Positions 482 through 19,330 of a stretch of DNA of 38,266 bases are shown piece by piece. How positions within the stretch are numbered: position 1 is the stretch's first letter; every line of letters starts with the position of its first letter. The translations under genes and the position numbers were made by a program. The notes below the pieces were generated by a model. The model worked only from the letters and a program-made list of their open reading frames with translations, did not search any database and was not told the DNA's origin. The DNA is from Deltaproteobacteria bacterium (lineage in GTDB: Bacteria; Desulfobacterota; UBA8473), in contig QZJR01000078.1 in NCBI GenBank assembly GCA_003599365.1, positions 1-38,266 of the forward strand, in the 5' to 3' direction.

Positions 482-2734
482 ATGATCAGCTCAAGACTTA
501 AGACCTATTTTCTGCTAGCTATTTTTGGTGCCATTATTGTTGCCTTAGTTGGATATTACTATACAAAAAAGGATTTACCGCCATATCCGGAAAAGGTCGT
601 CATGGAAAGCGGTGAACTGTTGACCGGAAAGGCCCAAATCATGGCTGGCCAACAGGTCTGGCAGAAATACGGCCTGATGGATATTGGGAGTGTCTGGGGG
701 CACGGCACTTACAGGGGTCCTGATTTTACTGCGCAAGCCCTGCACAATATGGGACAGAATATGCGGGAAAAGTTAGCCCATGAAAGAAGTGGAACTTCTT
801 ATCAGTCCCTTAATACAGAGTCTAAAGGGGGGGTAGACGCTGTTGTTATCAACCAAATCAAGACCAACCGATATGATTCAACCAATGACACCCTGACCCT
901 GACACCTCTCCAGACAGCGGCTCTCCTTGAAAATCGTAAATTCTACGACAACCTTTTCTCAGAGGGAAATAGAAGAGGTCCAATCCGTGCAGGAACTATC
1001 AAGGATACTCAGGAACGGCAGAATCTGGCCGACTTCTTTTTCTGGACGGCATGGTGCGCCGGGACCATTCGGCCCGGAGATACTCATACTTATACCAACA
1101 ATTGGCCCCACGACCCGGAGGTGGGAAATTTGGTCTCCGGAAAATCTCTGGTCTGGTCTGCAATATCCTTGGTGGCCTTCGGTATTATCCTTGGATTGAT
1201 TATTTTCCTGTTTCATAAATACGAGTTCAATCGTGGGTCGTTGCCGTATAAACCCGAACCTGCCCTGGCGCTGGCCGCAGCGAAAATATCCTCCAGTCAG
1301 AAGAAAACAGCCAAATTTTTCCTGGTCGTGGCTGCCCTGTTTTTCTTGCAGGTTATCATAGGCGGATTGATGGCCAGCTATACGGTGAACCCCGACTCCT
1401 TTTACGGAATTGATTTTGTAGCGAAATTCATACCTTATAATTGGGTTAAAACATGGCACCTTCAGTTAGCTGTATTCTGGATAGCCACCTCATGGATCGG
1501 TATGACCCTGTTTGTTTCCCCACGGGTCGGAGGTAAGGAACCGGCGGGACAGGGATTCTTGGTAGATGTCCTCTTCGTGGCTGTGATCATTGTTGCCTTG
1601 GGAAGCCTCACGGGAGAAGTTCTAGGAATAAAAGGGCTATTGGGCAAAGCCTGGTTCTGGTTGGGACATCAGGGTTGGGAATACCTGGAACTGGGCCGTC
1701 TGTGGCAGATTCTGCTGCTCATAGGTCTCATATTATGGCTGCTTTTGGTGGTCCGTGCATTAAAAGATCATTTTGCTTCCGGACAGGACAAATGGGGGTT
1801 ACCTCACTTCCTGGCATATTCCGGGATTGCGGTTGTTGGTTTTTTCTCTTTCGGTCTCCTCTATAATCCTCAGTCCCATTTGACCATTGCCGATTTCTGG
1901 CGGTGGTGGGTGGTGCATACGTGGGTTGAAGGAGCATTTGAGTTCTTTGCTGCAGCTGCAATCGTTTTTGTGATGGTAAATCTGGGACTGGTCGATCTGA
2001 AGGCCGGACTTCGCACCGTTTATTTTACCGTTTCCCTTGCTCTGGGCTCAGGTATCATCGGTGTAGGGCATCATTACTACTGGTTTGGCGAGCCTTCCTT
2101 CTGGCTGGCTTTGGGGTCTACCATATCAGCCCTGGAACCTGTGCCAATTTTGCTCCTTCTTGCCGAGGTGTGGCATGGACAAAAAGCGCTTGTCAAAGCA
2201 GGCAGTGGGTTCCCTTATCGGTATCCACTGATGTTTCTGATGGCCTCTGTTGTTTGGGAATTTGTAGGGGCAGGAGTCATGGGGCTCTCGATTACTACAC
2301 CGGTAGTAAATTACTATGAACACGGAACCTATCTGACCGTTAATCACGGTCACACTGCCTTGTTCGGGACTTACGGTCTTCTGGCCATCGGTTTACTGTT
2401 GTTTTCCATGCGGGGATTAGTCATGGAGAATGGATGGAATGACCGGTTACTCAAGGTATCTTTCTGGGGAACGAATATCGGGCTTTTTATTATGTTTATC
2501 GGGACGTTATTGCCTATCGGTATCCTTCAGGTTCTGGATAATATTAAATACGGTTTCTGGCATGCCCGTTCGGATGAATTCTGGTTTCAGGATACCATTC
2601 AATTATTAGGGCAAGCCAGGATGCTGCCAGACCTGCTGATTATCCTTGGCGCTGGCTCCCTCCTCCTGTTTATGCTTAAGACCATAACCAAACTGAAACC
2701 GGTTGAGGTTAAATCCGGTGAAAAGTTCGATTAG
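482..2734 (+). CDS. norZ: Quinol-dependent nitric oxide reductase (qNOR)
   Basis: Single-subunit membrane NO reductase that reduces two NO to N2O with electrons from quinol. The 750-aa length fits qNOR, a NorC-like N-terminal part fused to a NorB-like catalytic core. An N-terminal membrane helix precedes a periplasmic segment containing GQQVWQKYG and GSVWGHGTY, typical of the family, and about a dozen more hydrophobic helices follow. Candidate metal ligands are intact: His479 with Glu483 in HTWVEG, His530-His531 in GVGHHYYWFG, and His622/His624 in NHGHTALFG. These argue against the related nitric oxide dismutases, in which catalytic residues are substituted. AAGGGG lies just upstream of the ATG. 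No clear FNR, NorR or HcpR operator was seen upstream. A strong terminator closes the gene. Its last 369 bp recur at 15586-15954. Confidence 0.93.
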   Translation: MISSRLKTYFLLAIFGAIIVALVGYYYTKKDLPPYPEKVVMESGELLTGKAQIMAGQQVWQKYGLMDIGSVWGHGTYRGPDFTAQALHNMGQNMREKLAHERSGTSYQSLNTESKGGVDAVVINQIKTNRYDSTNDTLTLTPLQTAALLENRKFYDNLFSEGNRRGPIRAGTIKDTQERQNLADFFFWTAWCAGTIRPGDTHTYTNNWPHDPEVGNLVSGKSLVWSAISLVAFGIILGLIIFLFHKYEFNRGSLPYKPEPALALAAAKISSSQKKTAKFFLVVAALFFLQVIIGGLMASYTVNPDSFYGIDFVAKFIPYNWVKTWHLQLAVFWIATSWIGMTLFVSPRVGGKEPAGQGFLVDVLFVAVIIVALGSLTGEVLGIKGLLGKAWFWLGHQGWEYLELGRLWQILLLIGLILWLLLVVRALKDHFASGQDKWGLPHFLAYSGIAVVGFFSFGLLYNPQSHLTIADFWRWWVVHTWVEGAFEFFAAAAIVFVMVNLGLVDLKAGLRTVYFTVSLALGSGIIGVGHHYYWFGEPSFWLALGSTISALEPVPILLLLAEVWHGQKALVKAGSGFPYRYPLMFLMASVVWEFVGAGVMGLSITTPVVNYYEHGTYLTVNHGHTALFGTYGLLAIGLLLFSMRGLVMENGWNDRLLKVSFWGTNIGLFIMFIGTLLPIGILQVLDNIKYGFWHARSDEFWFQDTIQLLGQARMLPDLLIILGAGSLLLFMLKTITKLKPVEVKSGEKFD

Positions 2735-2765
2735 CAGCGGACAAGCTGAATAAACCATAACCAAC

Positions 2766-2804
2766 TCAGACCCCCCCTCGCAAGGGGGGGTCTGATGGAT
2801 TTTT
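2766..2804 (+). terminator. Rho-independent terminator after qNOR
   Basis: A perfect 13-bp stem (TCAGA, seven C, T paired with A, seven G, TCTGA) encloses the four-base loop CGCA. It is followed by TGG and then a TTTTT tract. It lies 31 bases after the qNOR stop and 20 bases before the CBS gene, so the CBS gene probably needs its own promoter or read-through. Confidence 0.85.
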
Positions 2805-2823
2805 GATATCCAGGTGAACAAAA

Positions 2824-3447
2824 ATGGACAAGAATACACTGAACCGTAATATCAGTTGCCCAGGGCCTTTGGATATCTCGGACGAGGATGTATTAAAGGC
2901 CATGAGAGACGTCCAAGGATATCTGGATATAACCCCGGCTGATGCCAAAGAGCTCTACCGCTTTGCCTATAGGCATGCCATTGAACGTCTCACCCATTCG
3001 GTCAGGGCAAGGGATGTTATGACCAAAACAGTAATTTCTGTCAAGATAGATACCTCCCTGGAAGAAGTAGCAGAGCTGATGGCACATCACGGTATCTCCG
3101 GTGTTCCGGTGATTGAGGGGGAAGGTATGGTTGCGGGCATCATCTCTGAAAAAGACTTCCTGCATAATATGGACAACGAAGGCGCCAGCTCATTCATGGG
3201 CATCCTGGCCCATTGTTTGAAAAGAGGGGGATGTATTGCCCTATCAATACTTAAATGGAAAGCCGAAGACATCATGACATCCCCTGCGGTAACTGTGGAG
3301 GAAGATACACCCGTTTCTGAAATTGCCGGCATTTTTACGAAAAAGAATATTAACAGGGTGCCGGTTGTTGACAGGAAGGGTAAACTGATCGGGATTGTCT
3401 CGCGGGCGGACATTGTCCAGTCATCGTCTCAGATAATTGAGAAATAG
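2824..3447 (+). CDS. CBS-domain pair protein with helical N-terminal domain
   Basis: A 207-aa soluble protein. Residues about 18-58 form a small helical domain containing GYLDITPADAKELYRFAYRHA. A first CBS motif follows from about residue 64 (RARDVMTKTVISV through HGISGVPVIE and GIISEKDFL). A second starts near residue 146 (AEDIMTSPAVTVEED through NINRVPVVDRKGKLIGIVSRADIV). CBS pairs bind adenosine nucleotides and regulate attached or neighbouring proteins. The next gene, 9 bp downstream, is an HPP-family membrane protein, and CBS and HPP domains are known to occur fused, so regulation of that protein is a reasonable inference. Function is otherwise unknown. Confidence 0.85.
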   Translation: MDKNTLNRNISCPGPLDISDEDVLKAMRDVQGYLDITPADAKELYRFAYRHAIERLTHSVRARDVMTKTVISVKIDTSLEEVAELMAHHGISGVPVIEGEGMVAGIISEKDFLHNMDNEGASSFMGILAHCLKRGGCIALSILKWKAEDIMTSPAVTVEEDTPVSEIAGIFTKKNINRVPVVDRKGKLIGIVSRADIVQSSSQIIEK

Positions 3448-3456
3448 GATTACCGG

Positions 3457-4008
3457 ATGAGGAATAGAACAATGAACTACTTCAAGAAAATGATCGGAAC
3501 AACAAAGAGCCCGCCATCTGTTGGTTTTTCTGAGATAGTCTGGTCATGGATAGGCGCCTTTCTTGGCATTGCCCCCTTAGCCTTGCTAAACTACACTATC
3601 CTCGAAAAAACAGATATGGTAATGCTTATAGGTTCTTTTGGAGCCTCATCCGTGCTTATCTATGGCGCAATCAAGAGCCCGCTGGCTCAGCCAAGGAATC
3701 TCATAGGTGGTCACATAATTTCAGCTCTTGTAGGCGTGACCTCATACAAGATACTCTACAGTCATATGTGGCTGGCTTCATCCATAGCGGTGGCAACATC
3801 AATTGTGGCTATGCATGCAACAAAAACCCTTCACCCCCCTGGGGGTGCCACGGCACTGATTGCAGTTACGGGAAGTCAGAAGATCATCAATCTTGGTTAT
3901 CTCTATGTAGTAATACCCGTCGGTCTGGGTGCAGCCATTATGTTAATTATTGCACTTCTAGTAAACAATATGCCCAAAAGCCGTAGATACCCGGAATTCT
4001 GGTTCTGA
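3457..4008 (+). CDS. HPP-family integral membrane protein
   Basis: A 183-aa protein with four to five hydrophobic helices and the family signature in TLHPPGGATAL at about residue 127. HPP proteins of cyanobacteria and plant chloroplasts have been reported to move nitrite across membranes; most bacterial members are uncharacterised. Here it lies between a NO reductase and a nitrite reductase (NrfHA) and directly after a CBS-domain protein, which fits a role in nitrite handling, but that is inference. An ATG 15 bases after the chosen start (MNYFKKM) could be the true start. The ORF is intact and uses codons like its neighbours. Confidence 0.82.
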   Translation: MRNRTMNYFKKMIGTTKSPPSVGFSEIVWSWIGAFLGIAPLALLNYTILEKTDMVMLIGSFGASSVLIYGAIKSPLAQPRNLIGGHIISALVGVTSYKILYSHMWLASSIAVATSIVAMHATKTLHPPGGATALIAVTGSQKIINLGYLYVVIPVGLGAAIMLIIALLVNNMPKSRRYPEFWF

Positions 4009-4095
4009 TCAACGAAAACACAGTAAGCAAAGAAAAGGATGTGTAAGTACTGGATCGATATATGAAGTTATTCGCTGTTCTATCAATGAGCTACC

Positions 4096-4119
4096 TATAG
4101 TGAACGAATTAAATAAATT
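4096..4119 (+). repeat. Solo end of a MITE-like element
   Basis: Twenty-four bases beginning TATAGTGAACG are identical to the left terminal inverted repeat of the element at 27860-27984. Only one end is present. It directly abuts the truncated DUF4445 gene, so it probably marks an old insertion or deletion breakpoint. Confidence 0.7.
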
Positions 4120-4478
4120 TGGCAGCCATGCGAGTGCTTCTTAATAGTGTTGGTCTATCATTTAACGATTTGGAAAAGATCTTTGTGGCAGGCGGTTTTG
4201 GTAACTACCTGAACGTGGAAAAGGCTATATTTATAGGTCTGCTTCCGGATATCCCTGTAGAACGAGTGCAGTTTATTGGTAACAGTTCTCTTACCGGTAC
4301 CCGAATGGCGTTGCTTTCCAGACATGCCTTTGCCAGGGCAAAAAACCTGGCGAACCAGATGACTTACTTCGAACTCTCCGTGAATCAAGACTTCATGAAT
4401 GAGTTTGTAGCATCTCTCTTTTTACCGCATACCGATATGAACCTGTTTCCTACGGTAAGGCGTTTGTTGGCAACTTAG
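4119..4478 (+). pseudogene. C-terminal fragment of an ASKHA-type corrinoid activator (DUF4445/RACo-like)
   Basis: About 119 codons matching the C-terminal end of DUF4445 proteins: VAGGFGNYLNVEKAIFIGLL, then GNSSLTGTRMALLSR, then a terminal FLPHTDMNLFP. Full-length members are about 600 aa with an N-terminal 2Fe-2S domain. They use ATP to reactivate corrinoid methyltransferase proteins in acetyl-CoA and methylamine pathways. Everything upstream of this piece is missing: the frame meets a stop at 4110 and the sequence changes to a MITE end at 4119. There is no ribosome binding site. This is a remnant, and shows that a corrinoid-dependent methyl-transfer system existed in this lineage. Confidence 0.75.
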
Positions 4479-4574
4479 GCAAAAGGATTTCAAATATCTG
4501 TAGTAACCGAACCATAACGACGACAAATATGGCAAGACCGGAAAAACAAGGAAGAACAAGATCGCGCACAATGA

Positions 4575-4751
4575 ATCTGCAAAGATGAAGACCTCTCATG
4601 GAGTTATCCATGGTTAGCATGGTGGATGTCTGCAGATGCCAAGGAACAGGTTATCGTTTATGCCAAAGCATTTGAGGATACACACGGTGAATGTGGAGTT
4701 GAGAAATGCAGCAGAGCGTTAACCGAAATAAGAATTGGCTTTACCTTATAA
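4575..4751 (+). other. Possible short gene remnant upstream of nrfH
   Basis: An open frame without obvious start reads through SWSYPWLAWWMSADAKEQV and then HGECGVEKCSRAL, ending inside nrfH. The composition looks protein-like and an ATG occurs at 4626, but I recognise no family. The rest of the 4479-4705 interval shows nothing I can name. It may be the tail of a lost gene or chance. Confidence 0.2.
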
Positions 4752-5176
4752 TACTTGGTTTGGCTATTGGCGTTGTGTCGGGCGTGGGAGCGTACACTTT
4801 TCTTTATGCAAAAGGTTTCTCCTACATGAGCAATGCCCCGGAGGTCTGCACCAATTGTCATGTTATGGACGCTAACTACAATGCCTGGGTTAAATCGAGC
4901 CATAAAAACGTGGCTGTTTGCAACGACTGTCACGCGCCGCACTCCTTTTTGCGCAAGTATGAAACTAAGATAGTCAATGGTTTTTTACATTCATTTGCGT
5001 TCACTACCGGGCGTTTTCCCGACCCGATTCGGATTACCAATCGCAGCCGCCGGATCGCCGAGCAAACGTGCCGCTATTGTCATGCTGATATTGTTCAACA
5101 GATAGACACCGCGCATAAGGGCGCCGAACCGCTTGACTGCCTGCGTTGCCATCCGTCGGTGGGTCACTTGGAGTAA
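4706..5176 (+). CDS. nrfH: Cytochrome c nitrite reductase small subunit, membrane quinol oxidase
   Basis: A 156-aa member of the NapC/NirT/NrfH family that carries electrons from menaquinol to NrfA on the outer face of the membrane. One N-terminal membrane helix (about residues 11-33) is followed by four heme-binding motifs: CTNCH, CNDCH, CRYCH and CLRCH. The first is followed by VM, matching the unusual methionine-ligated heme 1 of NrfH. GGAG lies about eight bases before the ATG. nrfA follows 117 bases downstream, as in most nrfHA operons. Confidence 0.93.
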   Translation: MQQSVNRNKNWLYLIILGLAIGVVSGVGAYTFLYAKGFSYMSNAPEVCTNCHVMDANYNAWVKSSHKNVAVCNDCHAPHSFLRKYETKIVNGFLHSFAFTTGRFPDPIRITNRSRRIAEQTCRYCHADIVQQIDTAHKGAEPLDCLRCHPSVGHLE

Positions 5177-5180
5177 GGAC

Positions 5181-5297
5181 ATGTATAAAAAAGGAGAGAT
5201 CGGCAAAGTGTTACGGGGTCTGACACCTGGATCGTTAAAACCCCATGGGCGGGACGTCCATGCCATTTTAGGAATACGAAAGCGAGGGATACCATGA
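5181..5297 (+). CDS. Possible 38-aa leader ORF between nrfH and nrfA
   Basis: An ATG preceded by AAGGA opens a basic 38-codon frame beginning MYKKGEIGK and ending with a TGA that overlaps the nrfA start codon (ATGA). The overlap would allow translational coupling to nrfA. I recognise no family, and short frames of this size occur by chance. Confidence 0.25.
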   Translation: MYKKGEIGKVLRGLTPGSLKPHGRDVHAILGIRKRGIP

Positions 5298-6757
5298 ACA
5301 TTAGACAAAGATTGATCTCCGCCGCGCAGCGCTGCGGCACAACCGTTCCCAGAATGCTGGCGTTTTTGATTGCGGTCATTGTGGGGACCATGGTTATAAC
5401 GTTCTTCGTGACGACAATCCTGATCAACATCTTCGAGCGCAAGCAGGAGGCGCGTAATCCGTTCTATCGAGTGGTAGAGTTGGATGATACCACGGAAGAT
5501 CCAGCGTTATGGGGCAAGGATTTCCCGCAGCAATACGATGCCTATCTACGCACAGTGGATCAGGTGCGCACAAAATACGGCGGGAGTGAAGCAGTCCAAC
5601 GAACACCGACCAATGTTGATCCGCGTTCCGTTCTTGCCCGGTCACGCCTCGAAAGCGATCCACGCCTCAAGAAGATTTGGGCGGGTTACGCCTTTGCCAT
5701 AGACTTCCGCGAAGAGCGCGGCCACGCCTATATGCTCGACGACCAGACCTACACGGAACGACAGCGTGTAGTCAAACAACCCGGAGCCTGTATACATTGC
5801 CACGCTTCGGTCTATGTGCCTTACAAGAAACTGGGCGACGGCAACTTGATAAAAGGCTTCGAAAAGATGAACCAGATGCCGTACTTCGAGGCGCGTAAAC
5901 TGGTTACTCACCCTGTGGCATGTATTGACTGCCACGATCCCAAGGACATGCAGCTCCGCATTACCCGCCCTGGATTTCTCGAGGGCATCCGCGTTTACAA
6001 GGAATCTCAGGGGATTCGAAACTACGACGTCAATGCCATGGCCACGCGCCAGGAGATGCGTTCCTTTGTTTGTGGGCAATGTCACGTGGAGTATTACTTT
6101 AAAGGCCAGGAAAAGCGCCTTACCTACCCGTGGTTTAAAGGACTCCAGGCTGATAATATCCTCGCATACTATGACGAGACAGGTTTCAAAGACTGGGCAC
6201 ACGCTGAAACAGGTGCGCCGATGCTCAAGGCTCAGCATCCTGAGTTTGAAACGTGGAAACAGGGAATTCACTCACGCGCCGGGGTGGCCTGCGCGGACTG
6301 CCACATGCCCTACAAGCGTGTAGGCGCACTCAAGATCAGTGACCATCATGTGAGTAGTCCGCTATTACCGGGCAATATCACCAATGCATGCCAGACCTGC
6401 CACCGTGTGCCGGAATCAGAGCTGAAGGCCCGGGCCGAGCAGATTCAGAACCGCGTGTTCGAGATGCGCAATGTGGCAATGGATGCGCTGGTAGAATTCA
6501 TTGGAGAGCTCAAGACGGCACGAATAGCCGGAGCAACCGACAATCAACTAATGGTTCCTCGGAAGCTCCAACGCAAGGCACAATTCCTGCTTGACTTCGT
6601 CGAATCCGAGAACTCGATGGGCTTTCACGCTCCACAGGAGTCCGAGCGTCTGCTGTTTCTGTCGCTTGACTATACGCGGCAAGGGCAAAAAGCAGTACAA
6701 GCCCTTAGCATGGAACTCTCTTCTACCGCTAAGTTCTCTTCGAAGGGAAAGCGTTGA
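5294..6757 (+). CDS. nrfA: Ammonia-forming cytochrome c nitrite reductase, CxxCH heme-1 type
   Basis: Catalyses six-electron reduction of nitrite to ammonium. It is 487 aa with an N-terminal hydrophobic segment (about 21-45) that exports or anchors it. Five heme motifs are visible: CIHCH at 166-170, CIDCH at 210-214, CGQCH at 260-264, CADCH at 333-337 and CQTCH at 366-370. The family landmarks CGQCHVEYYF, AQHPEFETW and GIHSRAG follow the Escherichia coli order. The motif at 166-170 lies where most NrfA have CxxCK, the lysine-ligated catalytic heme; here the lysine is a histidine. CxxCH variants are known in some bacteria, so it is probably active. It forms the complex with the upstream NrfH. 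NrfA enzymes also reduce NO and hydroxylamine. Confidence 0.92.
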   Translation: MNIRQRLISAAQRCGTTVPRMLAFLIAVIVGTMVITFFVTTILINIFERKQEARNPFYRVVELDDTTEDPALWGKDFPQQYDAYLRTVDQVRTKYGGSEAVQRTPTNVDPRSVLARSRLESDPRLKKIWAGYAFAIDFREERGHAYMLDDQTYTERQRVVKQPGACIHCHASVYVPYKKLGDGNLIKGFEKMNQMPYFEARKLVTHPVACIDCHDPKDMQLRITRPGFLEGIRVYKESQGIRNYDVNAMATRQEMRSFVCGQCHVEYYFKGQEKRLTYPWFKGLQADNILAYYDETGFKDWAHAETGAPMLKAQHPEFETWKQGIHSRAGVACADCHMPYKRVGALKISDHHVSSPLLPGNITNACQTCHRVPESELKARAEQIQNRVFEMRNVAMDALVEFIGELKTARIAGATDNQLMVPRKLQRKAQFLLDFVESENSMGFHAPQESERLLFLSLDYTRQGQKAVQALSMELSSTAKFSSKGKR

Positions 6758-6984
6758 AGATTTCTTCGGCGTTATCCGTCATTACGGCTGCTGTTGTCGG
6801 TGTGGTTCTGAATCTGGCAGTCTGGTTCGGGATATATGTGATATTTCCGCAAACAGGCGGAATCAACTGGTTTGCAATCATATTGGGAATAATATCATTT
6901 ACAGCTATGCAATGGCTTAAAATCGGAATGATTCCGGTAATTGCGGTTTCAGGCATAGCTGGAGTAGTATGGAATTTATTTTAA
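6754..6984 (+). pseudogene. C-terminal remnant of a chromate transporter (ChrA)
   Basis: About 75 codons containing SALSVITAAVVGVVLNLAVW and KIGMIPVIAVSG, which match the last two membrane helices of ChrA-type anion transporters (usually about 190 or 400 aa). The upstream part is absent: the frame runs back into the 3' end of nrfA and its only start is a TTG overlapping the nrfA stop. Either nrfA was inserted into or recombined with a chrA gene, or this tail is translated as a small membrane protein. A remnant is more likely. Confidence 0.65.
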
Positions 6985-7014: not shown

Positions 7015-7752
7015 ATGCCCCCGTATAACAAACATTTGGAGGCAAGCGCAAAACGAACAGGGAAATCTTATCAACAAATGCACGACTGGCTTGACAATCA
7101 TCCGCAGATGAAAGCCGAACGTCATAGTTTGGACAAACTTTTTGAAAACATCGAATTTGTAAAAACATCATGGGGAGAGGAAGCGGTTAAAGAATATCTT
7201 CAACATATCGTGGAAGACTCGGCAATGCAGGACATTGAAGCCCTTCAAAAAGCCGGATGTCCTGATGAGGCGGTTTCCCACAGTATCGAGGTTGCCAGAA
7301 AAGCATTGGAGATTTCAAGCAGAGTTAAAATTAATGTGGATCGGAAATTAATCATTCGCGGCGCGGTTTACCATGATCTGGGCAAGTCAAAAACCTACGG
7401 AATGCAGCATGGCGAAATCGGAGCGCAGATGGCGCAGGAACTGAATTTAGAGAATGAGATTATACAAATCATTCTAAAGCATATCCGGGGTGGGCTTACA
7501 GAACCTGAAGCAGTCGAACTCAATCTTCCGGTACGGGATTACAAGCTGAAAACGCCGGAAGAAAAGATTATCATTTATGCAGACAGGATGGTTGACATCT
7601 ACACCGACGGCATTGTTCCGGATACAGATGAAAAAGATGCTGAAAATCGTTTTGTTGAAATTTTGCAGCAGTATGAAAAATATGGCAAAAATGCTGTCAC
7701 TCTGAAAAGATATATCGATATGCACCAAGAAATTCATAGGTGGATGAATTGA
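7015..7752 (+). CDS. HD-domain (HDIG-like) phosphohydrolase
   Basis: A 245-aa soluble protein with a good ribosome binding site (AAAGGAG). The HD metal-binding residues are His in VSHSIEVARK, the pair in AVYHDLGKSKTYG, and later His in QHGEIGAQ and KHIRGGL; an Asp in IYADRMVDIY completes the set. Such HD proteins hydrolyse phosphomonoester or phosphodiester bonds in nucleotides, but substrate cannot be told from sequence. The N-terminal 85 residues are helical and unassigned. It begins a three-gene unit with the PEP-dikinase-like and MFS genes. Confidence 0.8.
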   Translation: MPPYNKHLEASAKRTGKSYQQMHDWLDNHPQMKAERHSLDKLFENIEFVKTSWGEEAVKEYLQHIVEDSAMQDIEALQKAGCPDEAVSHSIEVARKALEISSRVKINVDRKLIIRGAVYHDLGKSKTYGMQHGEIGAQMAQELNLENEIIQIILKHIRGGLTEPEAVELNLPVRDYKLKTPEEKIIIYADRMVDIYTDGIVPDTDEKDAENRFVEILQQYEKYGKNAVTLKRYIDMHQEIHRWMN

Positions 7753-7812
7753 TTTTATTTTGTTAAGAAGCAGAGACTTGTAACAAGGTCAAAAATAGAA
7801 TTTAGAGATAAC

Positions 7813-10800
7813 ATGTTAAATCTATTTAATTTTTTTAAGAAAGAAGATGCCTGCACACTGCTTACTCCGCTTGAAGGCAAACAAGCTGAAAGATACCGCC
7901 ATTTCAGAGAACTGCTAAAAAACAATTACCTTGCGCTTCACCTGATTGCGGATTTGGAGGAAGCCTGTTACGGAGGCAAACCGTTCACGCTTCACTGGGT
8001 AAGGATGAAATATCAGAAACTTTTTGAAGCAATAAGTAACATTATTTCATCATTTGAAGGTTTATCCAAAAAGGATATTTCATCGCTTATCCGGGCAAGG
8101 GATGTTATCGGCAATGCCATAAATGAAGAGTTCCGTCCCGAATTCGAGTTTCTAAGCAAAGATATTGTTATTCCTTTTGATGCCTTAACAAGTGCGGAAA
8201 TGAAGAAAATGACAGGCTCAAAAGCCGGAAACCTTGCACTTATCCGAAATGTTCTGGGCTTGCCGGTGCCGGACGGATTTGTGGTAACTGCGTATGCGTT
8301 TCAAAAATTCATGGATGCAAACGGTCTGAATGAGCCTGTTGCAGAAGCATTGGAGGAGATGTCTGTTGAATCCGGTGAAGAGATTGAACGGGTCAGCCGG
8401 AAAATCATAGATATGATTATGCAGTCGCCGGTTCCTTCCGAGATCGAAGAAGCATTGATAAACGCTTATGCCGCGCTTGAACAGAAAACTGTGCCTGGCG
8501 TGCATATTGCCGTTAGAAGCAGCGCAATCGGCGAAGATACGGAAGCCTCATTTGCAGGTCAGTATTCGACAGAGCTGAATGTAACAAAAGACCATATTAT
8601 ACATGCCTATAAAACAGTGATCGCAAGCAAGTATTCCGCACGGGCAATTTCTTACCGGACACATTACGGGCTGGATGATAGGGAAACGCCAATGTGTGTA
8701 GCAGGAATTGTGATGCTGAATCCAAAAGCCAGTGGCGTGCTTTACACAAAGAATCCGACCGAACCTTTTTCTGATGCGGTCAAAATCAATGCGGTCTTAG
8801 GGCTTGGGGAGTATCTGGTTGACGGAAGCGCTTCGCCGGATGTGTTTGTGGCAGACAAAAAAAGAAATATCATTTTGGAAAAACATATCGGTTCCAAAGA
8901 ATTTCGGATGGTAAATCTGAGCGGCGGCGGAATAGATTTGGAAAAAATACCCGAATCCGAAAGACAAATTCCTGCTATTGACGATTCCATCCTGTTTCAA
9001 CTGAGAGATTTCGGGCTAAAACTTGAAGAATATTTCGGAAACCCGCAGGATGTGGAATGGGCAGTGGATAAAAACGGAAAACTGTTTATTCTGCAGTCCA
9101 GACCCCTGAATATTACAGACACCAAAGCTTCGGAAGAAAAAATCGAGGTGAATGAGGCAGAGTATCCGGTTCTGATTTCAAGCGGAAAAGCGGCATCGCC
9201 GGGCGTGGCAATCGGAAATGTTTTTATTGTAGCCCCGGATATTGCGCTCAAAGATATTCCTGCCTATTCCATTCTTGTCGCCAAAACCGCATCGCCAAGT
9301 TATGCCGAAGCCATCGGCAGACTGCGAGGAATCATAACCGATATGGGGAGCACAACCAGTCATCTGGCTTCCGTAGCCCGTGAATTCGGAGTGCCGATGC
9401 TGGCGGACACCAAAAACGCCACATCGGTTCTTGCAAATCAGGATACCGTTACCTTTTATGCCGATATTACCAAAGTCTGGCAGGGAGCCGTGCAATCGCT
9501 CGAAAAGCATGTGAAACCTGCCAAACGCCCGATGTTCGAAAGTCCGGTATATCAAAAAACCAGAAAAATCCTTGACCACATTACGCCGCTTCATCTGACA
9601 GACCCCAAATCCCCGTCATTTACCCCTGAAGGATGTAATAGTATTCATGATATTATCAGGTTCACCCACGAAGAGTCCATGAAACAGATGTTTTCTTTCG
9701 GAGAAACCACAGGAAAAGGCATGACTTCCGTGAAACTGACCGCAAACCTTCCGATGTTCTTTTATCTGATTGACATCGGCGGAGGACTTAAGTTCGGGCT
9801 CTCCACCTGCGATGTTGTTACTCCGGACAGTGTGGAATCCATCCCGTTCAAGGCGGTGTGGAAAGGTTTTACGCATCCTGGCATCACATGGTCAGGCGCA
9901 ATTAACCTCAGTATGGGCAATTTTATGACTCTCATGGCTTCGGGAGCAACAGCGGGCGAAATGCCGGGCGCCACGCCCAGTTATGTTCTGATTGCGCAGG
10001 ATTATATGAATATGAGTGCGCGCTTTGGATACCATTTTGCGACCATTGATACGCTTTGCACTGAAGACAGCAACCAGAATTATATCACGCTGCAATTTTC
10101 AGGAGGCGTAGGGACATATTACCGGCGTTCTTTAAGGATTAATTTTCTTGGAAATGTGCTTAAGCGGCTGGGTTTTGAAGTATCTCTCAAAGGAGATCTG
10201 CTGGATGCGGCTCTGATGAGATATGACAAAGCAGCCACAGAGGAAAAGCTCGATCAGTTGGCTCGTCTTCTGGCATGCAGCCGCCTTCTGGACATGGCGA
10301 TTTCAGGTCAGGAACAGGTCGGTGAAATGGCAGAGTCCTTTTTCAGACAGGAATATAATTTTCTTGAAAGAAAACAGGAAAATGACCCAAAGGAATTGTA
10401 TGTTCACACCGGCTTTTGGAAGACGGTTAAAGAAAAGGATCATATTCGCTGCATTCAGGACGGAGCCAAATGGGGAAACGCTCTCACATCAGGGGTTTCA
10501 AAGCTCATGGGCAAAATGTTCGGAGATTCGTATCAGGAATTTTTGGACAACATCGACGCCTATCATTATTTCCCTTTTGCTATCGCCAAAAACAGCGAGA
10601 TTTCAGACGGATCGGCATCGGTTCTTGTCAATGCAGCATCAGGAAGCATTGACAGAGCCGGTGGCCTGGCATTCGGCATCAAAGATGTCTGCAACTATTT
10701 TGTTTTCAGAATTAATGCCCTTGAAGACAACGTGATTCTGTTTGAATTTGACAAATGCAAGAGGTATCAACGAAAGTCATTTAAAAAGAAAATAAATGCC

Positions 10801-10998
10801 GGCGAATGGTATTTGCTTAAAGTGGAAATTACGGGAAATACATTCAAAGGCTTTGTAAACGATGAACTGCTCATGGAATACGAAGCACAGCGAACTTTGA
10901 GCGGATATATCGGGCTTTGGACAAAAGCGGATTCGGTTACCCATTTTGAGAATTTACAGATTCAATCCGAACAGACCGTGAGAACAATTGAATTTTGA
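7813..10998 (+). CDS. PEP-dikinase-like multidomain protein of unusual architecture
   Basis: A 1061-aa protein. Residues 1-115 are unassigned. About 125-445 form a PEP/pyruvate-binding ATP-grasp domain (KKMTGSKAGNLALI; RSSAIGEDTEASFAGQYS; ending WAVDKNGKLFILQSRPL). About 455-560 form the swivelling phosphohistidine domain, with His517 in TTSHLASVAREFGVP. The C-terminal TIM barrel that binds PEP or pyruvate in true dikinases is not recognisable. It is replaced by an unfamiliar region (about 600-900) and a beta-rich tail (about 925-1061; FVFRINALEDNVILFEF and GYIGLWTKADS) resembling LamG/DUF1080-type concanavalin folds. It may phosphorylate something other than pyruvate via ATP and His517; substrate unknown. 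Its end overlaps the MFS gene by 11 bases. Confidence 0.8.
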   Translation: MLNLFNFFKKEDACTLLTPLEGKQAERYRHFRELLKNNYLALHLIADLEEACYGGKPFTLHWVRMKYQKLFEAISNIISSFEGLSKKDISSLIRARDVIGNAINEEFRPEFEFLSKDIVIPFDALTSAEMKKMTGSKAGNLALIRNVLGLPVPDGFVVTAYAFQKFMDANGLNEPVAEALEEMSVESGEEIERVSRKIIDMIMQSPVPSEIEEALINAYAALEQKTVPGVHIAVRSSAIGEDTEASFAGQYSTELNVTKDHIIHAYKTVIASKYSARAISYRTHYGLDDRETPMCVAGIVMLNPKASGVLYTKNPTEPFSDAVKINAVLGLGEYLVDGSASPDVFVADKKRNIILEKHIGSKEFRMVNLSGGGIDLEKIPESERQIPAIDDSILFQLRDFGLKLEEYFGNPQDVEWAVDKNGKLFILQSRPLNITDTKASEEKIEVNEAEYPVLISSGKAASPGVAIGNVFIVAPDIALKDIPAYSILVAKTASPSYAEAIGRLRGIITDMGSTTSHLASVAREFGVPMLADTKNATSVLANQDTVTFYADITKVWQGAVQSLEKHVKPAKRPMFESPVYQKTRKILDHITPLHLTDPKSPSFTPEGCNSIHDIIRFTHEESMKQMFSFGETTGKGMTSVKLTANLPMFFYLIDIGGGLKFGLSTCDVVTPDSVESIPFKAVWKGFTHPGITWSGAINLSMGNFMTLMASGATAGEMPGATPSYVLIAQDYMNMSARFGYHFATIDTLCTEDSNQNYITLQFSGGVGTYYRRSLRINFLGNVLKRLGFEVSLKGDLLDAALMRYDKAATEEKLDQLARLLACSRLLDMAISGQEQVGEMAESFFRQEYNFLERKQENDPKELYVHTGFWKTVKEKDHIRCIQDGAKWGNALTSGVSKLMGKMFGDSYQEFLDNIDAYHYFPFAIAKNSEISDGSASVLVNAASGSIDRAGGLAFGIKDVCNYFVFRINALEDNVILFEFDKCKRYQRKSFKKKINAGEWYLLKVEITGNTFKGFVNDELLMEYEAQRTLSGYIGLWTKADSVTHFENLQIQSEQTVRTIEF

Positions 10999-12232
10999 CA
11001 GTCTGAAATCAGATATTATACTTCTTTTTTCGACACGCATTATACGTTTGTTTGCTTATGGCTTTCTGTCGGTTGTGCTGGTGTTGTACTTGGCGGAAAT
11101 CGGATTGAGCGGCTATGAAATCGGTCTGCTGCTGTCGCTGACGCTGCTCGGAGATGTGGCGGTTTCGCTGTGGATTACTACCGTTACGGACCGCATTGGC
11201 AGGAAACGGATGCTCATTTTCGGCTCTGTCCTGATGGTATCGGCAGGAGCGGTATTTGTTTTTACAAAGAACCCGCTATTTCTGACCGTCGCCGCTATTG
11301 TCGGCATCATCAGCCCGAGCGGAAACGAAATCGGCCCTTTTCTTTCCATAGAACAGGCTGCCCTGTCGCAACTGCTTCCGGATCAAAGACGCACCCATGT
11401 ATTCGGATGGTACAATCTTGCCGGATCATTTGCCACAGCCCTTGGGGCGCTTTGCAGCGGATGGCTGGTAGAATCTTTGCAAAAATCAGGGTTCACAATG
11501 TCAGACGCATACCGCTGTGTTTTATTCGGTTATTCTGCCTGCGGATTGCTGCTGATTCTGTTATTTATCGGACTGTCATCGGGTGTTGAAACAGGCAAAA
11601 CCCCGACCGTAAAGTGCAAAATGGGGCTTCACCGTTCGAGGAAGGTAGTCATCAAATTAAGCGCCTTGTTTTCTCTTGATGCGTTTGCAGGCGGCTTTAT
11701 CGTTCAAAGTATAGTGGCATACTGGTTTCATATCCGTTTCGGCGCCGATACAGGCGTTTTAGGCAGTATCTTTTTCGGGGCAAATATTCTGGCTGGAATT
11801 TCAGCGCTGCTTGCCGCCCGTATTGCAAAACGCATCGGGCTTATCAAAACAATGGTTTTTACGCATATTCCGTCAAATATACTGCTGTGTATTGTGCCTC
11901 TGATGCCGAATCTTGCATTGGCAATTTCTGTGTTGATGCTGCGTTTCAGTATTTCACAGATGGATGTGCCTACCCGTCAGTCATATATAATGGCGGTTGT
12001 GCTTCCTGATGAACGGGTTGCGGCATCCGGCATTACAAACATTGCCCGTTCAATAGGGGCCGCAGTATCGCCTTCTTTAAGCATATTTTTCTTTGCTAAT
12101 CCATTGTTTATCAGCGCTCCTTTTTTTCTGGCAGGCGGTCTGAAAATAATTTACGATTTGTGCCTTTACCACATGTTTCAGAATATCAAGCCGCCCGAAG
12201 AGAAAGGCACGCTAGTTGAGATGAAAAAATAA
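10988..12232 (+). CDS. MFS transporter
   Basis: A 414-aa integral membrane protein with about twelve hydrophobic segments and the major facilitator motif A (TVTDRIGRKRML) between helices 2 and 3. The best start is TTG at 10988, giving MNFDSLKSDIILLFSTR and overlapping the upstream dikinase-like gene by 11 bases; no ATG fits as well. The overlap points to translational coupling and a shared pathway. Substrate cannot be assigned. Confidence 0.85.
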   Translation: MNFDSLKSDIILLFSTRIIRLFAYGFLSVVLVLYLAEIGLSGYEIGLLLSLTLLGDVAVSLWITTVTDRIGRKRMLIFGSVLMVSAGAVFVFTKNPLFLTVAAIVGIISPSGNEIGPFLSIEQAALSQLLPDQRRTHVFGWYNLAGSFATALGALCSGWLVESLQKSGFTMSDAYRCVLFGYSACGLLLILLFIGLSSGVETGKTPTVKCKMGLHRSRKVVIKLSALFSLDAFAGGFIVQSIVAYWFHIRFGADTGVLGSIFFGANILAGISALLAARIAKRIGLIKTMVFTHIPSNILLCIVPLMPNLALAISVLMLRFSISQMDVPTRQSYIMAVVLPDERVAASGITNIARSIGAAVSPSLSIFFFANPLFISAPFFLAGGLKIIYDLCLYHMFQNIKPPEEKGTLVEMKK

Positions 12233-12605: not shown

Positions 12606-14243
12606 ACTAAGGACTGCCTCATATTCAATTTTGTTGCCACCAATACCATAGAAGGCAGGGTTCTCCGGAGGCTGCTGGAAAGACTCCAGGAAATACGCAA
12701 TGCCCTTGATGATGATGCAGTGTTCAATGTTGTGGGAGAAGTCCTTCCGGCTGTTCATATAGAACGCATCCTTCGTGACTATTATGCAGGCAGGCTTGGA
12801 GACGCTGATCTCGAAGAACGCCTGCTTGAAAACGTGGATGAGAGGCAGTTTCGAGCTATCTGCCAGAATGCACTGGAAGGTCTGGCATCAAAAACACTTA
12901 ATCTGGAAATGCTGATAGAACGCCGCGCCCGATCACAGGAATGCCGTGTAGTGCCTGAGACTATAGCCAGGTTTATCCGCGAAGCGGCCGAATACGTTCC
13001 ACTCAAGCTCAAGACATTAGATAATATGCCTCACACATTTGAACCGGCGCGAACCCCTGTAATTCTCCAAAAATACGAGCGGGAACCCAACTGGAAATTA
13101 CCTGCATTAGCAGTCAAATACCCGCGTTGTTCCACCGACCGCGTCACGGCTGAAACCCACAATCTCGAATGGGTAACACCTGGCCACCCACTTTTTGAAG
13201 CAATTCGCAGGCACACCTTTGAAAAAGCCGTTGAAACATTCGGTAAAGGCGCTTGTTTCTATTCCTTACAGCACGAAGTTCCATCCCGTATCGACTTCTA
13301 TCGGGCACGAGTTGTTGATGGCTTAGGGCAGGTTGTTCACGAACGGCTTTTTGCGGTGGAGATTAGGGACAATACCGGCCCATGTCTCCGTGAGTCGAAC
13401 ATGCTCGGAGATTTTATGCCTGCCGAAGCGCCGGAAGAAATCCCGGGTGTTACTTCAGTGCCTGAAGCTTCTGCGTGGCTGCACAAGAATGCTCTTGAGG
13501 CATTTCTCGAAGAAACACGCAAAGAGCGCTTGGCAGAGGTACAACGCATTGCTGAGCACGTGGAACTTTCGCTTACCGAACTGCTTCAACGGGCGGATGA
13601 AGAGATTGGGAAGGCCATGGAGGACAGGGAGAAAGGTATTGCCGGAGCAGACGGACGTATGGCTCAGGCAGAAAACCGACACGCCGAACTTATGGCCCGC
13701 CGCGAACGTCGCAGACAGGAACTCGAACGCCAGGGGGCGTTGTCGCTTCAGGCTATAGAACGTATTACAAGCATTATTGTCCTTCCTCATCCCGAACGCG
13801 AAGCGCCTGACGTCCGTAGTATGCGGCCGAATTCGGAGACTGAAGCCATTGCCATGAAAGTGGTAATGGATTATGAAAAGGTTAAGGGTCGACAAGTTTA
13901 CGATGTTCACGAGAAGAACCTTGGCTACGATATCACCAGTTTGGACATCAACTCCGGAGAACTGCGTCTCATTGAGGTGAAGGGGATAGGCGATGTCACG
14001 GGGACGATTTTGCTTTCGCCCAACGAACGCCGTGTAGCAGAAGACTGGCGAGACTGCTATTGGCTCTATGTAGTGACAAGTTGCAATACAACGCCGACCA
14101 TGCAGGAACCTATCAAAGACCCAGCACGTTTTCCATGGCGCGAGGTTACAAAGGTTGCCCACTACCGGCTCGAAGTAAACGCCATGACGAGACCGATGAT
14201 GGTCAGGGAGGATAAACCACCGTATGGAAGACAGAAACCATGA
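12606..14243 (+). pseudogene. 5'-truncated SNF2-type helicase with C-terminal DUF3883
   Basis: Homology opens at KDCLIFNFVATNTIEGR, the segment just after helicase motif VI in SNF2-family proteins, and continues through VGEVLPAVHIERILRDYYAG. Both RecA-like motor domains upstream are missing. A charged, coiled region (about 13490-13760) is followed by DUF3883 with GYDITSLDINSGE and LIEVKG, a nuclease-like fold. Full proteins of this type are about 1000-1100 aa and occur in phage-defence islands, including DISARM-like loci; that link is by analogy. The longest start-to-stop frame begins at GTG 12720 and would give 507 aa, so a truncated protein could be made. The end overlaps the Fic start by ATGA. 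Confidence 0.75.
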
Positions 14244-15288
14244 GATCCTTTGAATATGGATATTATCTTGAAACGCCGCTTTCCCATGCGCTTCTGATGA
14301 CAATGCGATCATTGGGTGAATTCAGAGGTCGCCAGACACTTTATACCGACCAGTTTCCTGAAGTTCTGGATACATTACGGCGGGTCGCTATTATACAGAG
14401 CACGGAATCATCGAACAGAATCGAGGGCATTACCGTTGGCCCGGGTAGAATCGAAGCCATTGTTTCAAAGAAAGCCAGCCCTCGCGACCGTTCCGAGCAG
14501 GAAGTCGCAGGATACAGAGATTTCTTGCATCCATCCATACCAACCATGCCGGGCTTGAAGTTTCAAACAGCCTCATCCTGGACTGGCATCGAGCCCTATA
14601 CCGTTTCACCAATGAAATGGGTGGAAAATGGAAAGAAAAGGACAATGCTATTCTTGAAGTTAGACAGGATGGGCGTCAAGTGGTGCGCTTTCAGCCCGTG
14701 TCCGCGCTGGCCACACCGGATTTTATGAACGGCCTGAGTAAGCTGTTCAAGCAGGCCACGGACAATGCTGAAACCGACCCTCTGCTGCAAATTGCCACGT
14801 TTGTTTTTGATTTTGAATGTATTCATCCTTTCAAAGACGGGAACGGACGTATCGGACGTCTGCTTACGCTTCTTCTCCTCTATCACGCCGGGTATGAAGT
14901 CGGCGGATACATAAGTCTGGAACGCATCATTGAAGACAGCAAGGATACCTATTACGAAGCGCTCAACAAAAGCTCGCAAGGCTGGCATGAGGGAAAGCAT
15001 GATCTTCGTCCCTGGTGGAATTATTTCCTAGGGATGCTGATTGCAGCTTACAAGGATTTTGAAGACAGGGTCGGAAAAATAACGTCAGCAAGGGGCGCAA
15101 AGAGAGAAATGGTGATAAATGCCATTGAAAGTCTGTCTGAGAAGTTTACGATCGGCGACCTCAGACGAGCCTGCCCCGGTGTGAGCTATCCCACCCTTCA
15201 GCGCGCTCTTGCCGATTTGAGAAAGGAAAAGAAGGTAAGGTGTCTCGGCAGGGGGCCTGATGCAGAATGGGAGCACATCAAGGGTTGA
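14240..15288 (+). pseudogene. Fic-family AMP-transferase gene with a frameshift
   Basis: Two frames together encode one Fic protein of about 349 aa. The first (from ATG 14240) holds the N-terminal domain and the inhibitory motif SSNRIEG, as in self-inhibited Fic enzymes. The second carries NHAGLEVSNSLILDWHRALY, then the catalytic motif HPFKDGNGRIGR, then a C-terminal winged-helix-like segment (TIGDLRRACPGVSYPTLQRAL). The break is at about 14521, after GYRD, and is best explained by one missing base. Fic enzymes usually transfer AMP from ATP to target proteins. A sequencing error could produce the same picture. The helicase remnant is immediately upstream and overlaps by 4 bases. Confidence 0.8.
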
Positions 15289-17158: not shown

Positions 17159-19330
17159 ATGCATTGCCCAGCAATCTCTCTCACCTATCTCACTATCCAT
17201 GTATGCGAAGGGTTTGGGTCTCATGGAACTTTTGAAGTTTACCCGTTTATTCAAGATGCCCTTAAGCTTCCAGAATCATTAACAACATCTCAAAAGAATA
17301 AGCTGTGGAAGGCTTACAGGGCCTCATGCCTTAAATTGGGTCTTTCCATCTCAACGCGTCTTTCCGGTGCCCATTTCATGGTTGATGAGTACCTGAGACA
17401 AAGTGGTGTTCCCATCCCATATGTAGGAGACCTGACAGATAAAATGCTTCGTTATGGAAAAGTCACAGGTATTCCCGATGATGATGATCCCGCTGCTATT
17501 AAAAGATGGCAAGAAGGGTTGAGCCTTAGGCTTTTGCCACCTTTTTCGAAAGTAGCAAGACAGGCAATCGTCTTGGATGATAACGGTTATTATATCCGCC
17601 TCTTTCTCAAGCTTCTTGAAAAGCCAGCAGAGCCTGCTAGCGCACTATCAGATTTTGAATTGCGAATGTCCGATGCGATCCACAGACAGGAAATAACCGC
17701 AGTTCTCCGCCGAAAAGGTAAGTCTCTTCGTATCGTACAGGTCTTATGGAGAGATAATCAACTTGGCGTTGAACTCCCGCCTGGAGAAGGGGTGGAATGG
17801 TCGATAACGGTTGGGGATATAACAACCAACTATATCGGACAGATGGAAAGCAGATTTATTCCCTTTGATAAACCTTTACCACCGTTTGTTGAAATAAAAG
17901 GTGAGGATCGCAGCAGACCGCCAATAAGTCTATGGGAAGATGAGAGAAATAATCGTCTACTGATATTTACTGCGTCCGGCACCTTTGTCAACTCGTCAAA
18001 ACTGAGCGAAGCGCCAATAACCCTGGAGCCTGGTGACTATCATCTGGTTTTGCGTTTCATTCCGGATGGTCTAAGAGAAACCGTTGAGGAGGTGAGAATA
18101 CAGCCTTCACTGTATCTGCTTCCCCTACGTTTGGAACCCGGGGAAAAATTTGTTCTGAAGCACGGACCGGCCACCCTTGAACTGCATGCTGATCTGAAGC
18201 CGATTCTTCTTTGGGAGGGTACTAGCATCAAAGGGCTTAGAGGCAATGAAATATATTGCAGCAATAATTTGAAGCTGCGTGCAATCATTCCCGAAGAATA
18301 TTTTGTAGATGGTATTAAATATTACATTCGTTTTAGCCAGGCAGCAGAAACTGATGAACTAATTGCACAAATCTCCAACGATCAACCCGATGCAGCCATT
18401 ATCAATGTATACAAACTTATTCGAAATAGGTGGAGACCTGGCGTCACAAGGATTCTCGCTGAAATCTACCGTGAAGGGATACAGCGCCCCGTTTTTCGCT
18501 CGGCCATCATGTTATGGATAGGACTGGAGACGGTTAGAAGTCGGACACACTTCTATTGTTCTGCTCATCCATCCAATTTGATCGAGGAAGAATGCGACAA
18601 CCTTTTCATCAACAGAGAGGAGTCATATATCAGTTACCGGAACAAAGACAATCGATTTTTTCGCATGGTCTTCAATCTTGGCGATGCGAAGCGCTTTATC
18701 TTCACTTTGCCTGTTCCGGGAATATTCATGCAATTGAAAGATTATTCCGCTTCGACTGAAATTGAACGACCCTTAACAAAAGGATCCACACTTTCCGTTG
18801 CCCGGAATTCGAGAAACGTTCTCGAAATATCTTCCACATCAAGTGGGTTCTTAAAATTGGGTAATTTTAGGGCACGTGTGGATTTCAGTAAAAGGCTTCC
18901 CTTGTCCGGTCTCATTGAGTACCTGGGCCCGGAAACACATACGCTTCAGTTCATAGACGATGAAAGAGGCTGCGAAGAAGACCTATTGAATTTGGTTTCA
19001 CCTCATGAAATCCTCGCTTATTCGGTAGAACCCAAAAGTAATTTTTACCGCATTAGGTTTTCCCTGGCGCAGCAAGTCACGGAACTCACTATGAGAGCTA
19101 TTGATTTACTTTCCGGAACGTGTGAGATGCTACTTTTAGAATGTAATAGCACTTTCGAATCGACAGAATCCGGAGTACGCGGCTGGTTGACGTGTGAAAG
19201 CAATAACCAACAAGGTTTCTTCAATCACGATTTGTTGCTTTCGCTTAACGCGTGGCCTAATGGAACGTGGGTTATTGATCCTGAAGCTAAGATAAATGGA
19301 CGTTGGAACTCTGATCTCCCTCGCAGCTGA
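17159..19330 (+). CDS. Large protein of unrecognised family, possibly 5'-truncated
   Basis: A 723-aa ORF from ATG 17159. The frame is open and protein-like further upstream, from 17015 (KFLNKQVRHAF; PFRLYLAFL), without an ATG, GTG or TTG, so the original gene may have lost its 5' end where it meets the CARF-like fragment. The N-terminal 150 residues are mostly helical (FYPFIQ-like YPFIQDALKLP; HFMVDEYLRQSGVPIPY; GIPDDDDPAAIKRW). The rest, about 170-723, is rich in beta strands and could hold several Ig-like modules (VEWSITVGD; LEPGDYHLVLRFIPDG; LEPGEKFVLKHGPATLEL). No catalytic motif, signal peptide or membrane helix seen. Its neighbours suggest a defence-island protein, but function is unknown. 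Confidence 0.6.
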   Translation: MHCPAISLTYLTIHVCEGFGSHGTFEVYPFIQDALKLPESLTTSQKNKLWKAYRASCLKLGLSISTRLSGAHFMVDEYLRQSGVPIPYVGDLTDKMLRYGKVTGIPDDDDPAAIKRWQEGLSLRLLPPFSKVARQAIVLDDNGYYIRLFLKLLEKPAEPASALSDFELRMSDAIHRQEITAVLRRKGKSLRIVQVLWRDNQLGVELPPGEGVEWSITVGDITTNYIGQMESRFIPFDKPLPPFVEIKGEDRSRPPISLWEDERNNRLLIFTASGTFVNSSKLSEAPITLEPGDYHLVLRFIPDGLRETVEEVRIQPSLYLLPLRLEPGEKFVLKHGPATLELHADLKPILLWEGTSIKGLRGNEIYCSNNLKLRAIIPEEYFVDGIKYYIRFSQAAETDELIAQISNDQPDAAIINVYKLIRNRWRPGVTRILAEIYREGIQRPVFRSAIMLWIGLETVRSRTHFYCSAHPSNLIEEECDNLFINREESYISYRNKDNRFFRMVFNLGDAKRFIFTLPVPGIFMQLKDYSASTEIERPLTKGSTLSVARNSRNVLEISSTSSGFLKLGNFRARVDFSKRLPLSGLIEYLGPETHTLQFIDDERGCEEDLLNLVSPHEILAYSVEPKSNFYRIRFSLAQQVTELTMRAIDLLSGTCEMLLLECNSTFESTESGVRGWLTCESNNQQGFFNHDLLLSLNAWPNGTWVIDPEAKINGRWNSDLPRS

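Follow-up and report, generated by a model that had tools for sequence, protein, structure and literature searches.

What do an HD-domain protein, a PEP-synthase-like (PPS) protein, and an MFS transporter do when their genes are packed together on one strand of a deltaproteobacterial contig, and do the three genes form a unit of their own? The window analyzed here, a stretch of 38,266 nucleotides (GenBank assembly GCA_003599365.1, contig QZJR01000078.1), is a single contig from a 74%-complete MAG, and the ORF calls in the GC-rich relatives used for comparison are approximate. A preliminary description of this DNA had reported three same-strand genes, two of them sharing 11 bases, and the ORF calls at these positions bear this out: the HD and PPS genes are separated by 60 bases, and the PPS and MFS genes overlap by 11 bases (Table 1). 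The PPS protein was conserved at 43–51% identity in seven distant genomes, a degree of conservation that is not due to chance. No Rfam match was found across the window, the promoter and terminator counts in the window were at or below the shuffled-sequence level, and a search for related loci returned one relative among the genome contigs and none among the viral contigs. None of the three genes was identified as a known defense gene by PADLOC, which gave one weak Cas3g match, to the HD protein.

Table 1. Features of the locus, in window coordinates.
Feature	Position	Strand	Remarks
ChrA C-terminal remnant	6754..6984	+	76 residues; starts at the nrfA stop codon; remaining chrA absent
HD-domain gene	7015..7752	+	245 aa; ATG start
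PPS gene	7813..10998	+	1061 aa; ATG start; long class, CBM66-like tail
PPDK_N ATP-grasp domain	8209..9150	+	Residues 133–446; PF01326, E 8e-89
PEP-utilizers mobile (swiveling) phosphohistidine domain	9265..9453	+	Residues 485–547; PF00391, E 5e-17
His517 codon	9361–9363	+	Invariant in 42/42 homologues
C-terminal domain (C-domain), in the place of the PEP/pyruvate barrel	9526..10380	+	Residues 572–856; without database match
CBM66-like concanavalin-fold tail	10618..10962	+	Residues ~936–1050; levanase CBM66 4azz, E 1.1e-6
MFS transporter gene	10988..12232	+	414 aa; TTG start; PF07690/MFS_1, E 2e-29

The gene neighborhood shows that the trio stands in a chromate-resistance (chr) context. In the window, a ChrA remnant that was absent from the preliminary description lies between nrfA and the HD gene, and its sequence was 68% identical over 75 amino acids to the ChrA (PF02417) of locus L035 and 57% and 55% identical to those of L078 and L145, respectively. 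Neither PF02417 nor ChrB was matched anywhere in the 74%-complete assembly. The remnant and its junction with nrfA are known from this single MAG of 74% completeness, and the junction could be either the product of a genuine rearrangement or an artifact of assembly. In the sister MAG L034 (Proteobacteria), in which the PPS protein is 93% identical to that of the window and the members of the trio are 86–93% identical, the order is ChrB-HD-PPS-MFS in one direction, with ChrB directly upstream of HD, and the ribosome-binding region before HD is conserved. Related loci also carried chr genes in various arrangements: ChrB, the small N-terminal domain of the HD protein, a second ChrB_C, MFS, ChrA, and a long-class PPS in L035; PPS, a rhodanese-HD fusion, a multiheme cytochrome, a Phenol_MetA_deg-family protein, ChrA, and a further PPS in L078; ChrB_C, MFS, and PPS in L079; and PPS, ChrA, ChrB_C, rhodanese, MFS, ChrB, and HD in L082. 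ChrA was present in L035, L078, L082, and L145, and the rhodanese-HD fusion of L078 was ChrE-like according to NF033833, although its score of 92.7 bits fell below the cut-off of 120.

ChrB is a chromate-responsive regulator and ChrA an efflux transporter (PMC3817168), and we chose the chr determinant, with its ChrB regulator, ChrA efflux protein, and ChrE rhodanese, as described for the N. vulgaris plasmids and the TnOtChr of O. tritici (PMC3817168), as the known system for comparison. The window resembles it in its ChrA remnant, in the ChrB, ChrA, and ChrE-like neighbors of its relatives, and in the small N-terminal domain and MFS-type genes, but it lacks chrB and the greater part of chrA; in PMC3817168, the chr components listed include neither PEP-synthase-like nor HD proteins. 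The trio is likely to be what survives of the right-hand side of a rearranged chr cluster, within which the PPS protein would serve as an accessory ATP-dependent phosphotransferase.

A starker reading of the same truncation is that the locus is decaying, with chrA and chrB lost and the three genes left without any remaining joint function. The reduction of chrA to 76 amino acids and the lack of a chrA or chrB match in the assembly fit this reading, as does the downstream ORF at 12720–14243, which likewise resembles a C-terminal helicase fragment. However, none of the three genes downstream of the remnant is truncated or disrupted, and the PPS protein remains 93% identical to that of L034, in which chrB is present, and we regard decay as very unlikely.

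In terms of the wider surroundings, positions 482–6757 of the window encode a NorB-type nitric oxide reductase and NrfH/NrfA-like cytochromes. A search of seven genomes from the same genus or family gave no match to nrfA, so the nrfA region differs among the relatives. On the other side, the ORF at 12720–14243 matches only the C-terminal part of a defense helicase (HmaA/TmtA, NOV_C) and is followed by a Fic protein (SoFic-like, 14617–15288), an arrangement that looks like a truncated defense island. Further downstream are a 723-amino-acid ORF (17159–19330) that matched neither PADLOC nor, at E values below 0.001, Pfam, and a fusion of an NADPH-dependent FMN reductase with a low-molecular-weight phosphatase (33009–33992), possibly a metal or arsenate reductase.

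The two smaller partners of the PPS protein were each associated with chr genes in their own right. The HD protein matched PF01966 (E 3e-15), and the H...HD...D motif could be read from its sequence, but its score against TIGR00295 (99 bits) was below the cut-off of 172.35. Residues 1–72 form a small domain, which occurs elsewhere as a stand-alone gene adjoining chrB, and residues ~73–245 constitute the HD phosphohydrolase. The N-terminal part shared 44% identity with a hypothetical gene next to rhodanese-chrB-chrA in N. vulgaris, where it stands alone on the plasmids of RCH1 and L2, and it also adjoins chrB in five sampled genomes (G053, G107, G117, G145, and G385). Homologues of the HD part at 51–53% identity occurred in G145, G027, and G094, each in a chrA/chrB locus; the same range of identity was found with the HD genes by chrA/chrB in L145 and L146 and with the rhodanese-HD fusion of L078. 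Outside the window, HD directly adjoined PPS in L034 and L078 only, and the L082 locus also holds an HD gene. The MFS transporter was 62% identical to MFS proteins beside ChrB_C (L153, G123) and was 36–40% identical to transporters beside chrA on the plasmids of Methylocystis, Burkholderia, and S. mexicanum. Among the sampled alpha- and betaproteobacterial plasmids, the window-type MFS adjoined chrB/chrA in three of six and did not in the other three. In tblastn searches, the MFS transporters of L035, L079, L082, L145, and N. vulgaris had no match to that of the window, which implies that the chr genes are accompanied by at least two types of MFS.

These associations bear on the earlier proposal of a possible new three-gene unit, that is, a self-standing small-molecule modifying system comprising a kinase, a hydrolase, and an exporter and resembling the rifampin phosphotransferase (RPH). 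The tight locus is real, with its 11-base overlap and a trio kept at 86–93% identity in L034, but the independence of the unit was not supported, because its parts recur separately in chrB/chrA loci. When the gene neighborhoods were surveyed for conserved co-occurrence of the trio, as had been suggested, it was found in one other genome only (L034), and it is thus confined to two close lineages. RPH, moreover, has another domain order, and profile comparison showed no relationship between the acceptor regions, as detailed below. A self-standing system of this kind appears quite improbable, and the remnant of a chr cluster remains the preferred reading.

The PPS protein is composed of an N-terminal extension, a PPDK_N domain, a mobile phosphohistidine domain, a C-domain, and a tail. 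Across 42 homologues, the ATP-grasp residues K137, R235, E241, E415, Q428, and R430 and the phosphohistidine H517 were invariant, and the C-domain had invariant residues of its own (C608, D613, R616, H619, H741, R775, and D795). A C-domain profile built from 42 sequences (A1) gave no Pfam, NCBIfam, or PDB-sequence match for residues 572–856; profile searches of the PDB gave only chance-level matches (E 0.014 or worse), and an hhalign comparison with the PPDK/PtsI barrel gave a probability of 0.25%. The barrel family PF02896 was matched once in the assembly, by a 617-amino-acid frame, which we take to be PtsI, and was absent from all four PPS-like proteins of the assembly. The lack of a detectable PEP/pyruvate barrel in the PPS protein is thus supported by sequence and profile comparisons, although the region may have a divergent fold. 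AlphaFold2, applied to residues 565–1061 with a two-sequence input (window and L034), yielded a pLDDT of 29, which allows no fold comparison, so that a divergent barrel is still conceivable by fold. A profile of the last 200 residues of nine sequences (A4) matched levanase CBM66, and the tail also had weak matches to PF06439 and PF21708. The preliminary description, which had recognized the ATP-grasp domain and the phosphohistidine domain with His517, the missing TIM barrel, an unfamiliar middle, and a concanavalin-like tail, therefore agrees with these domain matches, invariant catalytic residues, and searches.

Comparison with characterized enzymes indicated where the resemblance ends. The PPS protein shares with PEP synthase (TIGR01418) the ATP-grasp and His domains, their order, and their invariant catalytic residues, but differs from it in having no detected barrel, an N-terminal extension of ~115 residues, a new C-domain, and a CBM66-like tail. 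Its PEP-synthase part matched PEP synthases in the PDB. It might accordingly be a diverged but ordinary PEP synthase, or a PEP-binding metabolic enzyme, that still makes or uses PEP; indeed, its best curated matches were PEP synthase models. These matches covered residues 116–574 only, however, with scores below the cut-offs for both TIGR01418 (328.8 versus 739.75) and NF005057 (340.8 versus 598), and they end at residue 574; the C-domain has different invariant residues and shows neither PF02896 nor appreciable barrel similarity. We consider retained PEP chemistry highly improbable. RPH (PMC4844700) and the HpeHI-type two-component dikinases (PMC12167813) share a working principle with the PPS protein, in that an ATP-grasp domain and a swiveling His domain phosphorylate a substrate other than pyruvate. 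The close tie to RPH that had been proposed was nevertheless not supported: RPH has the order ATP-grasp, acceptor (RIF-binding) domain, and His, whereas the PPS protein has the PEP synthase order of ATP-grasp, His, and C-domain; the rifampin phosphotransferase model NF041857 was not reached (228.1 versus 999 bits); and hhalign gave a probability of 1.1% between the C-domain and an RPH-like protein. The tail, at residues 936–1050, aligns with the levanase CBM66 (PDB 4azz) and the 3-keto-disaccharide hydrolase-like fold (E 1e-6), but, unlike in levanase, the CBM66-like module is fused to a phosphotransferase, with no glycosidase domain.

The PPS protein is one member of a large, as yet undescribed family. 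Among 99 sampled relatives, 93 matched it at E 1e-3, many of the weaker matches spanning the PEP-synthase part alone. In a phylum sample of 395 genomes, 33 matched at E 1e-170 or better, a cut-off that admits long-class proteins together with their closest short-class relatives. Two classes were distinguished: a short class of ~850 amino acids and a long class of ~1060 amino acids with the CBM66-like tail. The genome of the window itself encodes three 850-amino-acid paralogues without the tail, at 34–37% identity, which were absent from the preliminary description. The seven long proteins nearest to that of the window were all in chr loci. Of the 21 long-class genes, seven lay in chr loci and the other 14 had no chr neighbor, which means that the PPS protein does not serve chromate resistance exclusively. 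In the short class, neither ChrA nor ChrB occurred within 8 kb of any of the 80 genes. When 27 proteins were placed on a tree, the chr-linked long-class genes, seven in number, formed two neighboring clades, and the chr label changed twice, compared with 6.3 times in shuffles, none of 500 of which was as low; because near-copies in the tree ease such clustering, this establishes a chr-linked subset and not repeated independent recruitment.

The surroundings of the short class were of another kind. A stand-alone receiver (200 amino acids or less) lay within 2.5 kb of 45 of the 80 short-class genes, and a sensor kinase and TauE/SafE lay within 8 kb of 61 and 48 of them, respectively, these sampled genes being non-independent, since several are from one genome. 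Such genes were often paired (L045, L047, L048, L049, L053, L161–L164, L169, L172, L192, and others), with recurring modules of stand-alone receivers, sensor kinases, TauE/SafE, and universal stress proteins. These frequencies are in line with a signaling phosphotransferase whose phosphohistidine domain passes phosphate to two-component receivers or is controlled by them, the long class then being a tail-bearing offshoot with another partner. Adjacency is no proof of phosphotransfer, however, and the receivers may belong to the neighboring sensor kinases; moreover, no stand-alone receiver was found within 2.5 kb of the 21 long-class genes, and none adjoins the window locus. We judge a signaling role for the PPS protein unlikely and retain an accessory phosphotransferase of a chr cluster as the better explanation. 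Other neighbors and fusions were observed in the family. In L093 (8513–12289; 1259 amino acids), a PPS-like protein carries a fused dual-specificity phosphatase domain, and the same phosphatase adjoins PPS in L036, L041, L050, L092, and L184. An 1833-amino-acid protein in L206 (4760–10258) has the PPS-like part within its C-terminal half and ~1000 N-terminal amino acids without a Pfam match. Two GlgC-like nucleotidyltransferase genes, in L043 (5123–7683) and L052 (5868–8422), adjoin a short-class gene. An analogy with glucan dikinases, drawing on CBM66, the GlgC-like neighbors, and the dual-specificity phosphatase, was left as weak, the evidence being thin.

In terms of mechanism, the ATP-dependent phosphoryl transfer to an unspecified substrate that had been proposed is consistent, at the sequence level, with the ATP-grasp and phosphohistidine domains, the lack of a detectable barrel, and the unfamiliar domain, and the PPS protein probably uses ATP to phosphorylate an acceptor. 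Judging from the conserved residues, the ATP-grasp domain would phosphorylate His517 on the swiveling domain, and, by analogy with the known chemistry of PEP synthase and RPH, the swivel may carry the phosphoryl group from His517 to residues 572–856, which, standing in the place of the barrel, would bind the acceptor. The CBM66-like tail leads us to guess, weakly, at a carbohydrate-type acceptor or an envelope glycan, although CBM66-like modules do not invariably bind sugars. The dual-specificity phosphatase, fused to PPS in L093 or adjoining it, suggests that the product could be a phosphoester. The HD protein, as a hydrolase, and the MFS transporter, as an exporter, may act in the same chromate-type stress response. 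A broader proposal, which we consider rather unlikely, is that residues 572–856 represent an undescribed phosphoryl-acceptor domain and define a large family of phosphohistidine transferases driven by ATP. In this proposal, short-class members would feed or read two-component receivers in kinase/receiver/TauE modules, and long-class members, with their CBM66-like tail, would phosphorylate a carbohydrate in responses to chromate and other stresses.

In a search of largely open-access literature, no paper was found to link PEP-synthase-like proteins to chr clusters or to TauE/receiver modules. A PEP-synthase-type engine with an unrecognized substrate end, for which there is no Pfam, NCBIfam, or PDB-sequence model, is present in many genomes of the phylum, often in multiple copies. 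With short-class genes in two-component/TauE modules, it becomes possible to test whether receivers are linked to phosphohistidine transfer driven by ATP, and the recurrence of the long class in chr clusters provides chromate as a concrete condition under which its substrate may be sought.
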